64,000 nt of DNA from contig NZ_CP014634.1 in assembly GCF_001586215.1 (NCBI RefSeq), forward strand, positions 2,170,001-2,234,000. The letters are read 5' to 3'. Source of the DNA: Corynebacterium simulans. GTDB taxonomy: Bacteria; Actinomycetota; Actinomycetes; Mycobacteriales; Mycobacteriaceae. Of the stretch, positions 3,653 through 49,363 are shown in pieces. Within the stretch, counting starts at the first letter, position 1, and each line of letters begins with the position of its first letter. Made by a program: the position numbers and the translations under genes. The notes below the pieces were generated by a model. That model was not told the origin of the DNA, did no database searches, and saw only the letters and a program-made list of their open reading frames with translations.

Positions 3653-4877
3653 GTTGCTGCGGCGCGAAAAGCTCTGCCACCCACTGCGACCACGCCACCA
3701 CGGTTTGGGCGCGGCGGGGAAGCGTAGAACCAGAGATATTTAGGTCGGCCGCCTCCATGATGGCCACGGCTTCTTCCTTGCTCAGCATGCGCTGCTTCTC
3801 AGCCACGGCGGCCACCATCTCGTGGAAGACAGGCCGGCTAGCTAGCGCCTCGATGAGCTGTAGGTTGCGCCCGTCGCGGGTATCGGCCAGCTCGATTCCC
3901 TCGACCAGCTCATCCTCGATGCGCATCAGGCCCAAGTAACGGCCGGCATTCAAGTAATAGTCAGCCTGGCGGTGGCTAAACCCAAAGCGCTCGGGAATCT
4001 CCGCCTTGGGTAGTGGCAGCATCTCCCAGAGGCTGACCACGCGCGCAAAGGAATCGGCCTGGGGAAAGGGAATCTCCGCCTCGCGTGGGCTGCTGCGCCG
4101 TAGGACTGCCTTGACGGATTCGGTGTTGAGCTCGGATTCGCCGAGCATATAACGTGCGGCGGCCTCGAGCTGGATGCTGCGGAAATCCTCCGCATCGCTG
4201 AAACGATAGCGATACAGGTGGAAGATGCCGTTGGAATAGACCAGGTATACCGGCACAACTTCCTTTCCCAGCTGTTGGCTAAAACGCCGGAAAGGCAGAT
4301 AAAGCTGGCGAATGTTGAAATCGGGCGAGATGTGATTCTTGCACTCGATGAGCACCAGGCACTCGGGCGCCTCAAACCCGCCGTCTATTTCCATCTGCGC
4401 ACGGTCCACCACGAGCTCCTCGCCGCGCAGGCGCATGCTGACGGTGCCGGTGGACATGCGCCCGGCCACGGTGGCATGCAGCTTATCGACGCCCAGGAAA
4501 TCCTGCAGCACTCCCGCAATCACCGCGGCATTGAGCACGAGGGTCTCGGAGCTTAAATTGTCGAAGTCAAGCGATTCAACCCCTTGCGGAACGGGCAGCG
4601 TCTTAAGGGGCGTCACGGTCTCCGGAAAAGGCTCGTAGACGTCGAAGTTGCCCACGACGTATCCATCGCGCCGGATGGGGAAGATGCTTAAATTATGCTC
4701 CTGGAAAATCTCCGGACGGGAAGCGGAAAAGTCATGTTTGGCCAGAAGGCGCGGCTCTCGGCCGCCCTTTTCTTTGAGCTGTTTGGCGCTAAATTCCACG
4801 AAGCCTTCGCGTTCGATGCGTGCCAAGGTCTCAGCGTCGAGGATGCGCTGCCATGCGACGTCGTTAAGCCGCGCCAT
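3639..4877 (-). CDS. Type II restriction endonuclease, PD-(D/E)XK type
   Basis: 412 residues, encoded directly downstream of a Dam-like methyltransferase and overlapping it by 14 bp. The central region has a plausible PD-(D/E)XK catalytic core: an Asp in AQMEIDGGFE near residue 165, then LIECKNHI near 178, where E-C-K gives the E-x-K pair. It is followed by the basic/aromatic helix LYLPFRRFSQQL. The C-terminal third resembles a winged-helix recognition module (ERFGFSHRQADYYLNAGRYLGL). The role is cleavage of unmethylated foreign DNA. The recognition site is not deducible from this protein; it differs in length from DpnII-type enzymes, which are nearer 290 residues. The call rests on context and motif. 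Confidence 0.75.
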   Translation of the reverse strand: MARLNDVAWQRILDAETLARIEREGFVEFSAKQLKEKGGREPRLLAKHDFSASRPEIFQEHNLSIFPIRRDGYVVGNFDVYEPFPETVTPLKTLPVPQGVESLDFDNLSSETLVLNAAVIAGVLQDFLGVDKLHATVAGRMSTGTVSMRLRGEELVVDRAQMEIDGGFEAPECLVLIECKNHISPDFNIRQLYLPFRRFSQQLGKEVVPVYLVYSNGIFHLYRYRFSDAEDFRSIQLEAAARYMLGESELNTESVKAVLRRSSPREAEIPFPQADSFARVVSLWEMLPLPKAEIPERFGFSHRQADYYLNAGRYLGLMRIEDELVEGIELADTRDGRNLQLIEALASRPVFHEMVAAVAEKQRMLSKEEAVAIMEAADLNISGSTLPRRAQTVVAWSQWVAELFAPQQLSLL

Positions 4878-5706
4878 AGTTACGCACCAATACTTCGTCG
4901 ACTTTGCCGCGCTTGGATGCCACGGAATTGATGGCGCGGGTGGCCCCTACGATGTCTATCTCGTAGGCGGAATAGATCTCCTGGATGAAATCCGTGGCGG
5001 AGTTCGATAGCAGGAACTTCACGCCGGCTGCGTCGAGTTTGTCGCAGACTTCCTTAAGGCGGAGCTGATCCTCGCGGCCGAAGCCGCCGGACTGGTACCC
5101 GGTGAAGTTGCTTGTGGGATTGACTGGGTCATAGGGAGGATCGAGGTAGACAAAGTCCCCCTCTTTGGCGTCTTGCAAGATGGCGGCATAGTCACCGGTG
5201 TGGAAGGAAACCTCGTTGTCATTGAGGTACCTCGATACCCCGCGCAGGGTCTCTTCGTCACAGATGGCGGGGTTGGCGTAGCGGCCGAAGGGGGAGTTGA
5301 ACTGCCCGGCATTATTGACGCGGTAGAGGCCGTTGTAGCAGGTCTTGTTCAGGTAGATGGTGCGCGCGGCGCGCTCGGTGCGCGTCATGTGTGCGAAGGA
5401 GGAATCGCGGTCTTTGCCGCGCATCTCGTAGAAGAAGTCTTCCTCGTTGGGGTAGGTGCTTAGCAATGAGATGAGTCCGTCAACATCGTCGCGCACGGTC
5501 TCGTAGACGTTGATGAGCTCAGAGTTGAGATCGTTGACCGTGGCTTTTTCCGGGGTCAAAGAAAACAGCACCGCGCCGCCGCCCAAGAAGGGCTCGTAGT
5601 AATGGTTAAACACCGGCAGGGCAGCGTGGATTGCGGGCAGGAGCTGGCGCTTTCCGCCGACCCACTTGAGGAGCGGCTTGATGGTGTGCTGCTTGGCAAG
5701 ACTCAT
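4864..5706 (-). CDS. Dam-like N6-adenine DNA methyltransferase (D12 class)
   Basis: 280 residues. The S-adenosylmethionine motif KWVGGKRQLL is at residues 14-23 and YEPFLGGGAV follows. The family segment LNKTCYNGLYRVN is present, the catalytic motif DPPY lies near residue 188, and the C-terminus ends INSVASKRGKVDEVLVRNY. All are characteristic of the Dam/DpnM group, whose members mostly methylate A in GATC or related sites. It protects host DNA from the partner nuclease encoded next. The gene precedes the nuclease gene, as is common in type II systems. GATC is plentiful in this window, so site avoidance does not reveal the target. Confidence 0.9.
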   Translation of the reverse strand: MSLAKQHTIKPLLKWVGGKRQLLPAIHAALPVFNHYYEPFLGGGAVLFSLTPEKATVNDLNSELINVYETVRDDVDGLISLLSTYPNEEDFFYEMRGKDRDSSFAHMTRTERAARTIYLNKTCYNGLYRVNNAGQFNSPFGRYANPAICDEETLRGVSRYLNDNEVSFHTGDYAAILQDAKEGDFVYLDPPYDPVNPTSNFTGYQSGGFGREDQLRLKEVCDKLDAAGVKFLLSNSATDFIQEIYSAYEIDIVGATRAINSVASKRGKVDEVLVRNYGAA

Positions 5707-37796: not shown

Positions 37797-38636
37797 CTAG
37801 CTCGCCTTAACCGCGTGCGCCTGCGCCACCATGTGCAGCGTCCTCCGGCAGGTATCTGGATCTTTGGCTAATTGCTCGGGCGTAAATTGAACTACTCGGT
37901 ATCCCAAGGAGCGCAGGTATGCCGTGCGGCTCGAGCGCCGGGATAGGACCGCTTGCGGGCCAATCTCGACGATGATGGCCTCTTCGATGAGCAATGCCTC
38001 GATGCCAGGCGCCACGCGTTGCTGCGGCTTGGCATCTAAGCCCAGCTCCACAGCCAGTGCGCGCACGAGTGACTCGAAAGGCGAGCGCGATAGGGAGCTG
38101 GCGCAGGCAATTGCCTTGCGGGCTGCTGCGGCATTATGCACGCGCCCTAAGCCATCGACCTCGGCTTGCAGCTGGGCAGGGCTAATACCCATGTTTAACG
38201 CTGAGTCTGCGGCGATGAGACCGTGGCGGAAGCCGTGGTAACGCGCGACGTCGGCAACCGCGCGGGCAATGCTAACCACGCGCGCACCGTCGATGGTTTC
38301 TACGTCCCCGACCATGGTCTTGCGGTAGCAGCGTCCCGGCGCATGGCGGTTATGGCGGGGCAGGCTGCCGCAGGGAAGCGCTAGCTCGACCGGGTCGTCG
38401 GGGCAGGGGAGCAGCCAAAGGTCATGCAGGAGTGCGGCGGACTTGCTAATCAGTACCGCGGTATAAGAGCTGCGGGCTATGGCTATGCATTCGAGGCGCT
38501 GGCGTTCGACGGCGGAAAGCGCTAAGTATTTCTCGCGGTCTACGGCCATGCGCGGTGCTAGCTGCAAAAGTGTGCCGGATTTAAGGTCATTGGATGTGGC
38601 GGGCTTGGCTGGGTGGATGGTCTCAAGAGTGGTCAT
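37797..38636 (-). CDS. Degenerate DUF559-like nuclease paralogue (AbiEi-like layout)
   Basis: 279 residues, with the same plan as the protein at 48296-49189. An N-terminal helical half contains AVLISKSAALLHDLWLLPCP and VVSIARAVADVARYHGFRHG. A nuclease-like C-terminal half ends YLRSLGYRVVQFTPEQLAKD. In the intact paralogue the core is RADLAIDGWLLIEIDG; here the matching stretch is GIEALLIEEAIIVEIG, so the first Asp and the E-x-D pair are changed. Probably catalytically dead or repurposed. An inverted-repeat element lies about 120 bp upstream of its start. The layout resembles AbiEi-family antitoxin-domain proteins, but no toxin gene is adjacent. Confidence 0.6.
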   Translation of the reverse strand: MTTLETIHPAKPATSNDLKSGTLLQLAPRMAVDREKYLALSAVERQRLECIAIARSSYTAVLISKSAALLHDLWLLPCPDDPVELALPCGSLPRHNRHAPGRCYRKTMVGDVETIDGARVVSIARAVADVARYHGFRHGLIAADSALNMGISPAQLQAEVDGLGRVHNAAAARKAIACASSLSRSPFESLVRALAVELGLDAKPQQRVAPGIEALLIEEAIIVEIGPQAVLSRRSSRTAYLRSLGYRVVQFTPEQLAKDPDTCRRTLHMVAQAHAVKAS

Positions 38637-38757
38637 GGCACTAGCTTCGCCCGCCGCGGGTGTGTAGCTCTAGAGGCAATTTTGAAAGCTGTGGATAACT
38701 TGTTGGTGGCGTCAACAACTGGCTGTGAAATTTTGTTGCTGAACCCCCAGCCCTAGA

Positions 38758-38854
38758 AAACCAGCCCTGGAAACCCAGACGTCGTGGTCGCGATTTTTAA
38801 GAGTTGAAAAATATTTTCTCGCGACCACGACGTCTGGGGTTCCAGGGCTGGGTA
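38758..38854. repeat. Inverted-repeat element, copy 1 (97 bp, giant hairpin)
   Basis: Arms at 38761-38793 and 38819-38851 are complementary at 32 of 33 positions around a 25-nt A+T-rich loop. The outer ends match the terminal sequence TACCCAGCCCTGGAAA of copies 2 and 3, and the right end continues TATTTGCG as in copy 3. A degenerate extra half-end (CCCCCAGCCCTAG) sits at 38744. The element lies between the degenerate DUF559-like gene and the CBS-domain gene; it could also act as a terminator. Confidence 0.85.
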
Positions 38855-38910
38855 TTTGCGGGGAAGGGGTAGAGGAAGCGGGAAGGGGGGGCAGGAAGGA
38901 GGGCTGGGCG

Positions 38911-48112: not shown

Positions 48113-48139
48113 CGCACCCGCCCCACGCCTTTTGGCAAA

Positions 48140-48235
48140 TACCCAGCCCTGGAAATGCAGCTTTCTGGTGGATTGCGGGGCGTCGGCAAGCGCGGCGAAA
48201 AGCGAACAGGAGGTCTGGGTGCCCAGCCCTGGGAA
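48140..48235. repeat. Inverted-repeat element, copy 2 (96 bp)
   Basis: The left end is an exact TACCCAGCCCTGGAAA. The right end aligns with the partner terminal repeat at 11 of 16 positions, so it is degenerate. The interior matches the reverse complement of copy 3, and the shared flank GGCAAA precedes the left end. It starts 27 nt after the pdxY stop. Confidence 0.8.
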
Positions 48236-48295
48236 TTTGACCATCCTGGCCGCACTTGCCGCGCGCCAGCACCCGCCGCCGGTTAAAAGTAAGGC

Positions 48296-49189
48296 ATGGA
48301 CAACGCATTACTTTTTGACACAATCGACGCCCACCTTATTGACCTTCGCCAACTATCCAACGTAGACCCGCGCTGGCTGCAACTGCACCACGGCAAAATC
48401 GTGCGCGCGGCCTGGTGCTTCGCGCTGCCGAAGCAATTCTGGAACCGGCTCAAACCCTGGGAACGCGACATAGCGCGGGTGTATATCCACGCACGGACCG
48501 TGCATAAAGCCGTGCTGATCGGAAAGCCCGCAGCTTTGATACACGGCATTCCCACCATTAGCCGCCCCACCGAATACCCAGCAGTGCTGCCCTCGGGCTC
48601 GGTGCCGCAGAAATCCAAGGGGCATTTCTTCGCTTATAAGGCCGCCCGCCTGCACGGGCAAACCACCACGGTCCACGGCATTAAGCTCACCTCGCTGGAG
48701 CGTACCGCGATCGACATGGCCCGCCTGCACGGCTTCGAAGAGGGGCTGGTCGCCGCGGATTATGTGCGTGCACAGGTGGGCCGCCGTCGCTTGCAGGATA
48801 CGTTGGGCGCGCTGGGCCGCGTTAAGGGCGTGGCGACTGCACGCGCCGTGGTGGCCGCGGCCGTGGTTGATTCTGAGTCGCCGTGGGAGTCCTACGCCCG
48901 CGCGTTGTTGCTGCGTGCGGGCATACACGTGCGCACGCAGTACATAGTGGGCAAGTACCGCGCTGATTTGGCAATTGACGGCTGGTTGCTCATTGAAATC
49001 GACGGCAATGTCAAATACCAAGACAGGCCTGTGGAGGCGATTCGCGCGGAGCACCGCCGCCAGAAGGAGCTGCTCAACATGGGTTATGTGGTCCTGCGCT
49101 TTAGTCCGGAGGAGTTGCGCGCCCGGCCGGAGGAGTTTGTCGCGACGGTGCGCCGAATGTTGGCGATGGGTCCGCGGCGCGCGGCATAG
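48296..49189 (+). CDS. DUF559/Vsr-like nuclease-fold protein with AbiEi-like N-terminus
   Basis: 297 residues. The N-terminal half is helical and contains AVLIGKPAALIHGIPTI and LTSLERTAIDMARLHGFEEG, similar to AbiEi antitoxin-type regions. The C-terminal half is a compact restriction-endonuclease-like fold: Asp224 in YRADLAIDGW, E234-I-D236 in LIEIDGNVKYQD, then EHRRQKELLNMGYVVLRFSP. The D...E-x-D arrangement is that of DUF559/Vsr-like proteins. It is flanked by inverted copies of a 96-bp repeat; copy 3 begins 1 nt after its stop. It looks like an active member of the family whose degenerate paralogue is at 37797-38636. Confidence 0.75.
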   Translation: MDNALLFDTIDAHLIDLRQLSNVDPRWLQLHHGKIVRAAWCFALPKQFWNRLKPWERDIARVYIHARTVHKAVLIGKPAALIHGIPTISRPTEYPAVLPSGSVPQKSKGHFFAYKAARLHGQTTTVHGIKLTSLERTAIDMARLHGFEEGLVAADYVRAQVGRRRLQDTLGALGRVKGVATARAVVAAAVVDSESPWESYARALLLRAGIHVRTQYIVGKYRADLAIDGWLLIEIDGNVKYQDRPVEAIRAEHRRQKELLNMGYVVLRFSPEELRARPEEFVATVRRMLAMGPRRAA

Positions 49190-49190
49190 A

Positions 49191-49286
49191 TACCCAGCCC
49201 TGGAAACCCAGAGGTCCTGTTCGCGTTTCGCCACGCGTGCCGACGCCGCGCAATCCACCAGAAAACTGCATTTCCAGGGCTGGGTA
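49191..49286. repeat. Inverted-repeat element, copy 3 (96 bp, perfect terminal repeats)
   Basis: TACCCAGCCCTGGAAA at 49191-49206 is the exact reverse complement of 49271-49286. The right flank continues TTTGCG, as in copy 1. The interior left half (CCCAGAGGTCCTGTTCGCG) matches copy 1 at most positions, and the right half matches copy 2. Size and terminal repeats resemble a miniature inverted-repeat element. Confidence 0.85.
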
Positions 49287-49363
49287 TTTGCGAGAGAGAA
49301 AGGCCGGTGAAGAGGCCAATGGGCAGCCGCAAACGCGTATGTACTACTGTGACGCGGCTGGGC

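Follow-up and report, generated by a model that had tools for sequence, protein, structure and literature searches.

The window analysed here, a stretch of 64,000 nucleotides of the Corynebacterium simulans genome (contig NZ_CP014634.1, positions 2,170,001 to 2,234,000), carries a 297-aa nuclease gene bracketed by two palindromic elements of about 100 bp that are inverted relative to each other. We consider it rather probable that nuclease and palindrome form a dedicated pair, in which the cognate nuclease binds, cuts and spreads its palindrome in a manner resembling REPINs and their RAYT transposases, with an unrelated enzyme. The analysis itself shows the bracketing of the genes, the matching and co-variation of nuclease and repeat, the common layout of the repeats, their dispersal, their amplification in one genome and the intact catalytic residues of the nucleases.

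A nuclease gene between two inverted palindromes

The gene (48296..49189, plus strand) encodes a protein whose AbiEi-like upstream two-thirds (residues 9-190, 48320..48865, plus strand) are fused to a Vsr/I-Bth0305I-like nuclease domain of the DUF559/MTES_1575 type (residues 193-293, 48872..49174, plus strand), with the catalytic residues E198, D224, E234, D236 and K240 all present. A sequence-only reading of the window had already assigned a DUF559/Vsr-like identity, which the DUF559/MTES_1575 matches bear out, and had missed the AbiEi-like part; its statement that no transposase is present holds for the nuclease protein itself, in which a Pfam scan detected no HUH transposase domain. The neighbouring genes match a Phos_pyr_kin kinase and an Era-type GTPase in Pfam and are presumably pdxY and era. 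A paralogue elsewhere in the window (37797..38636, minus strand) is degenerate; it has altered or lost three of its five catalytic residues and gives a weak DUF559 match under the gathering score.

The upstream element, copy 2 (48135..48238, minus strand), lies 22 bp past the pdxY stop, and the start of the downstream element, copy 3 (49188..49291, plus strand), coincides with the stop codon of the nuclease gene. Both the tight flanking by two inverted copies and the placement of copy 3 at the nuclease stop, as first read, were thus recovered. Covariance-model matches span 48136-48238 and 49188-49290, and pairwise comparison pairs 48135-48236 with 49190-49291 as inverted copies (102 nt, 88% complementary). 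Divergence between the two is larger than the roughly 7 differences in 85 positions originally counted, since they share 88% identity over 99 positions. The exact 16-bp terminal inverted repeats claimed for copy 3 are found at 49191-49206 and 49271-49286, and reach 22 nt at 91% when extended. With up to three mismatches allowed, a search of the window for the end motif TACCCAGCCCTGGAAA gave 8 occurrences where 0.42 would be expected, a count attained in 0 of 100 shuffles.

Candidate recognition words lie within the arms. Copy 2 has the outer candidate CCCAGCCCTGG in its left arm (48142..48152, plus strand) and two candidates in its right arm (48209..48232, minus strand), which in minus-strand reading are CCCAGACCTCC at 48209-48219 and CCAGGGCTGGG at 48222-48232. 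In copy 3, two candidates 14 bp apart occupy the left arm (49193..49217, plus strand; 49193-49203 and 49207-49217) and an outer one the right arm (49274..49284, minus strand). The third family element of the window (38741..38858, plus strand) adjoins the degenerate paralogue; its model match covers 38755-38858, and we extended its start by eye over a third word at the 14-bp spacing. When folded as RNA, copy 3 is far more stable than shuffled sequences on either strand (z of -5.5 and -6.1), and copy 2 is not (z of -1.2 and +1.8). Rfam at gathering scores gave no match between 36000 and 52000.

Bracketing and co-variation across the nuclease family

A Pfam scan of 89 family members (E≤0.01) returned DUF559, MTES_1575 and AbiEi_1 and nothing else; the fold is an AbiEi-like part joined to a homing-endonuclease-type domain (Vsr/I-Bth0305I). 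All five catalytic positions are retained by 27 of the 28 bracketed members and by 57 of the 61 that are unbracketed. The nuclease of genome G192 has no Pfam match at 0.01, yet it matches the family profile at 2.5e-40. Genes of the AbiEi-DUF559 type (E≤1e-15) were found in 124 of 150 genomes of the order, with counts per genome of up to 15 among the best 16 candidates considered for most of them; we know of no function for them. Subfamily members do not all lie at the same genomic position. Horizontal transfer by phages or plasmids was considered and rejected, neither the phage nor the plasmid collection giving a match at E≤1e-5.

In a strict flank test (300-bp flanks, a single scoring scheme), 42 of 67 nuclease genes outside the genus scored at least 20 against 0/202 control ORFs, as did 29 of 105 inside it against 0/111 controls, the control maximum being 15 in both sets. 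These counts make bracketing on both sides a property of the gene family, though most genus members tested are unbracketed: scores fell below 20 for 76/105 genus members and 25/67 others. The genus sample comprised 100 further loci from the top of the homologue list, a few truncated or interrupted ones being skipped, and the order sample 29 loci fetched with the order-wide search plus 40 picked by hand and spread over genomes; two loci at contig ends (L352, L360) were left out. Sixteen stretches of 20 kb, taken from genomes of the order, supplied the order control ORFs. Genus controls were drawn from the window genome alone, the window itself included; they can contain unbracketed DUF559 paralogues (L047, window), and the window's bracketed gene is hidden among them by a longer antisense ORF. 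The genus count of 29 still includes L231 (IS-like) and L242 (long repeat). In L231 (G113), the nuclease gene lies between long inverted copies resembling pieces of an insertion sequence, a situation that differs from the palindrome cases.

The strict test supersedes earlier, looser ones, in which 38 of 104 loci reached 22 against 1.5% of 3000 cross-pairs (L155 dropped for its short flank) and 20 of 29 order loci reached 28, some strands being doubtful and one case a contig-end artefact. Among 178 ORFs, the looser test placed 7 at 28 or above, all DUF559 genes, and 9 at 22 or above, one of which is not a DUF559 gene; among 30 era loci, three scored 22 or more and all stayed below 28.

The two repeats are matched within each locus and differ between loci. 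Other Corynebacterium homologues with 56-59% identity are also bracketed, by different palindromes, and in C. minutissimum 1941 two nuclease genes are accompanied by two separate palindrome families. Outside the genus, the bracketing pairs (n=42) are inverted in 15 cases and direct in 27, at median distances from the gene of 64 bp for the upstream and 10 bp for the downstream element.

Protein identity and palindrome similarity are correlated over 27 bracketed genus loci, L231 and loci scoring under 18 being left out (Spearman coefficient of 0.28; 0 of 2000 permutations as high). A repeat similarity of at least 16 was reached by 13/15 locus pairs whose proteins are at least 60% identical, by 7/15 at 50-60% and by 0/321 below 50%. 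Since the coefficient drops to 0.18 for pairs below 60% protein identity, much of the co-variation could reflect joint descent. With a score of 18 as the mark, 28 of the 89 proteins placed on a tree are bracketed, and this state changes 16 times along the tree, against a mean of 23.8 and a minimum of 18 in 500 shuffles. Bracketing is clustered on the protein tree but often gained or lost, and with 16 changes we rejected it as a clean vertical marker.

Dispersal, amplification and layout of the repeats

We built a covariance model from 17 copies of the window palindrome and counted matches at E≤1, once per place, among the best 150 candidates per genome. Copies numbered 9 in the window genome (G000) and 14 in that of C. 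striatum ATCC 6940 (G050), with 2 in G064, 12 in G011 and 7 in G012 (5 of them below 0.001), the counts for G000 and G050 being non-redundant ones made by hand. The model found no match at E≤1 in G142, though this genome carries a nuclease 55% identical to that of the window, and G064 has its two repeats with no nuclease match at E≤1e-20. A nucleotide search (E≤0.001), considering at most the five best candidates per genome, gave matches in 6 of 151 genus genomes, near-full-length ones among these candidates being confined to G000, G050 and G064. In the family alignment the arms are conserved and the cores variable, above all in 5 of the 9 G000 copies.

The sequence-only reading had named many copies in a genome-wide search, and repeats concentrated next to DUF559-like genes, as support for its proposal. 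Nine copies were indeed found in G000, but 6 of them have no DUF559 gene within 2.5 kb; one other adjoins the paralogue that lacks catalytic residues. A majority of copies far from nucleases is what a dispersed REP-like family predicts, though that reading had listed it as potentially refuting. Other palindrome families are also of low copy number, with 3-5 places in G012, G100, G035 and G070 and up to 8 in G084 (some fragments included, very short matches excluded), and five g40 genomes have 2-6 copies each by hand count.

The junction of two genes that we take to be ispF and cysS has no element in G000, and G050 has one element on either side of a rearrangement there. At both junctions that distinguish this C. 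striatum rearrangement from G000, one on the ispF side and one on the cysS side, a palindrome is present, and the two palindromes share a short flank (loci L065, L339 and L329 of G050 and G000). The site at 38741-38858 holds a full element in G000 and a half-element in G050. An empty slot between pdxY and era in relatives had been named as a supporting observation: the nuclease gene is absent from some, but the slot is not clean, as that of G012 holds other palindromes. There (L069:2493-2917), arrays of other 14-bp-spaced words of the GGTTC and GGTCCC types are seen, which by inspection resemble those around other nucleases, for example at L182 and L185. Among the loci compared, we recognised no solo palindrome at a sister-species site orthologous to a unit. 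In G084, L259 has the flank common to units L129 and L100; in our view it is the downstream element belonging to G084 itself, interrupted by an IS-like insert. Inspection by eye revealed no target-site duplication, either at the empty ispF-cysS site or around 29 aligned G192 copies. As regards the mobile unit first proposed, the differences observed between genomes are confined to single palindromes.

Two observations concern sequences next to palindromes. In G050, two copies bracket a small segment (L065:1501-2080) coding for the C-terminal part of a methyltransferase, presumably RlmB-like. IS-like sequences of about 1.1-1.4 kb, nearly identical among themselves, lie next to palindromes at L102, L255, L259, L269 and L272 (G084), at L256 and L260 (G064), and at L263 (G084) and L271 (G012), as if palindromes were targets of insertion sequences.

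Strong amplification was observed in one genome only, G192. The palindrome that brackets its nuclease (L361) occurs at no fewer than 40 places in this genome, counting the best 40 of 266 candidates, and among these the places other than the query copy are 89-95% identical to it; nine other genomes of the same genus gave no match at E≤0.001. Twenty-nine of 30 fetched copies align as a 70-bp unit with sharp ends, the remaining one being a mis-extracted contig-edge locus. Flanks differ from copy to copy, except for similar right flanks in L455, L458 and L466. By mechanical ORF calls, 37 of the 42 neighbouring gene ends assigned (58 sides) are 3′ ends, 29 within 30 bp, and mechanical ORFs enclose 4 of the 29 elements. 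A consensus-like G192 palindrome folds very stably as DNA (-36.5 kcal/mol, z of -9.7). The element flanks are C-rich and G-rich; we do not claim insertion into terminator loops, as complementarity of a copy's own two flanks exceeds that of cross-pairs by little (16/25 versus 44%).

Repeats with no common sequence often have the same layout, namely two direct copies of a word in each arm. In 31 genus elements, which are not independent as some are orthologues, 5-mers recur at an offset of 14 bp with 97 recurrences, followed by 25 at 28 bp, that is 2 x 14. Recurrence at offset 14 was found in 21/31 upstream and 23/31 downstream copies, against a shuffle mean of 2.6 and a maximum of 6; loci scoring under 24 and five IS-like or coding ones (L231, L245, L212, L226, L238) were excluded. 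In upstream copies outside the genus, 6-mers recur at 19 bp in 12/42 and at 20 bp in 9/42 (shuffle mean 1.0, maximum 5). Such recurrence at a fixed offset indicates that arms often hold two copies of a family-specific word. At L332 (about 4814-4930) and at 38741-38780 of the window, a single arm contains three words spaced 14 bp apart, as though tandem addition had enlarged the unit. By inspection, many genus arms start with GCAAA or a close form, and element ends read GCAAAT... or GTTCCC... with no GTAG-type tag.

Outside the genus, 30/42 bracketing repeats reach the mark set for self-complementarity, versus 1/42 shuffled ones; the 12/42 below it mean that not all bracketing repeats are clear palindromes. 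A consensus fold of the 17 window-family copies has a covariation term of +0.23, with double changes in 3 of 14 pairs, two of them in the core. Because there is almost no compensatory pairing in the arms, we rejected an RNA hairpin kept for pairing in the window family. Pairing is not conserved where these arms vary, so selection may not act on the hairpin as such. This pattern in the aligned copies suggests that the arms are sites bound by a protein on duplex DNA and do not form a selected RNA hairpin.

A proposed nuclease counterpart to REPINs and RAYTs

REPINs consist of two REP sequences in inverted orientation with a diverse spacer between them and are duplicated by a RAYT (PMC8049555, PMC3733652, PMC8266576). 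According to the relevant passages of these papers, a RAYT gene is often flanked by its own repeats and enzyme and repeats co-vary (PMC8266576, PMC3733652), and RAYT-like genes with untagged terminal inverted repeats are also known (PMC3733652). As far as those passages describe the system, the nuclease-linked repeats resemble it in their two inverted sequences around a variable spacer, in forming dispersed families specific to a genome, in flanking the gene of their enzyme (here 42/67 and 29/105 nucleases) and in co-varying with it. The link between the nuclease and its own repeat family, for which REP elements and TnpA-REP enzymes had been named as a model from sequence, is upheld by bracketing, by co-variation and by dispersed genome-specific repeats at independent loci. 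However, RAYTs are HUH/Y1 tyrosine transposases, whereas the enzyme here joins an AbiEi-like part to a Vsr/EDxHD-type nuclease with no HUH domain detected, which places the nuclease-palindrome family outside REPIN/RAYT systems. The arms also differ in often having two words 14 or 19-20 bp apart, the ends in lacking a GTAG-type tag, and the copy number in being low in the Corynebacterium genomes searched (2-14), though at least 40 in G192.

Other known systems share single traits. I-Bth0305I and other EDxHD homing endonucleases have the same Vsr-like catalytic fold with its active-site residues, but the window gene was not seen in an intron or intein; it is intergenic between two complete palindromes, and its AbiEi-like part takes the place of the homing DNA-binding domain. 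The latter part recalls AbiEi and Rv2827c-type antitoxins, yet here it is fused to a nuclease with no adjacent AbiEii gene (the window locus has pdxY and era). The Vsr mismatch endonuclease, which acts on T:G mismatches and is associated with a Dcm-type methylase, has a similar fold, and neither of the window gene's two neighbours is a methylase. Like MITEs, the elements are short and mostly intergenic, with inverted ends and no coding capacity; unlike them, they have cores that vary within a family and are linked to a nuclease that is not a DDE transposase, and at the sites inspected no target-site duplication was seen. Our searches of the open-access literature gave no paper on DUF559 with AbiEi, with inverted repeats, or with repeats and Corynebacterium, and for DUF559 with palindromic repeats only seemingly unrelated matches.

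We infer that the nuclease binds, cuts and causes the spread of its palindrome. The AbiEi-like part would most likely bind the family-specific words repeated in the palindrome arms, and the Vsr/homing-endonuclease-type domain would nick or cut at or next to the palindrome. Repair templated by another copy could then spread and maintain palindromes at intergenic sites, mostly gene 3′ ends, while the enzyme's own gene would remain between two copies.

An unlikely alternative is that the palindromes are control elements, with the upstream copy acting as the operator in an AbiEi-type autoregulation, the downstream copy as a terminator or boundary, and the dispersed copies as host terminators or titration sites. 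The AbiEi-like part of the nuclease, the median distances of 64 bp upstream and 10 bp downstream in the 42 bracketed loci outside the genus, the gathering of G192 elements at gene 3′ ends (37/42) and their very stable fold (-36.5 kcal/mol, z of -9.7) would all fit such a role. Autoregulation, however, fails to explain 40 or more near-identical copies in G192 with no match in nine congeners, and leaves unexplained why a matched copy stands on either side of the gene.

It seems still less likely that the elements are MITE/REP-like palindromes moved by another enzyme, the nuclease genes being bystanders or cargo caught between two of them, although inverted ends and variable cores, the IS-like near-identical sequences beside repeats in G084, G064 and G012 and the gene fragment between two copies in G050 (presumably rlmB-like) are consistent with this. 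Chance gathering does not give 42/67 versus 0/202, and repeat similarity tracks nuclease relatedness. We find it more doubtful again that the nuclease gene serves in defence, or is selfish and toxin-like, and that its flanking pairs act as recombination cassettes for exchange or loss at fixed slots. Its kinship with AbiEi, the presence of subfamily members at more than one genomic position and the direct orientation of some pairs, which would permit deletion, speak for this; the lack of any phage or plasmid collection match at E≤1e-5, of a recognisable solo palindrome at a unit-orthologous site among the loci compared, and of an explanation for the G192 amplification speaks against it.

Beyond the dedicated pairing of nuclease and palindrome, we tentatively propose that palindromic replicators driven by an enzyme have evolved a second time, independently, and are spread across the order. 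In these, a homing-endonuclease-type AbiEi-Vsr nuclease would recognise tandem words in its own palindrome and multiply the latter through the genome, nuclease and words co-evolving without HUH chemistry; the case for this broader claim is close to evenly balanced. The relevant passages of the cited work tie enzyme-linked bacterial palindromic repeats to HUH transposases only (PMC8049555, PMC8266576, PMC3733652). If our proposal is true, a second enzyme class would mean that dedicated repeat families arise repeatedly, the large and unexplained actinobacterial family of AbiEi-DUF559 genes would gain a role, and many natural enzyme-target pairs would become available for studying the co-evolution of nucleases and their sites. 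It may also explain the origin of dispersed palindromes near gene ends in genomes of this order, as well as rearrangement breakpoints such as those of C. striatum (G050).
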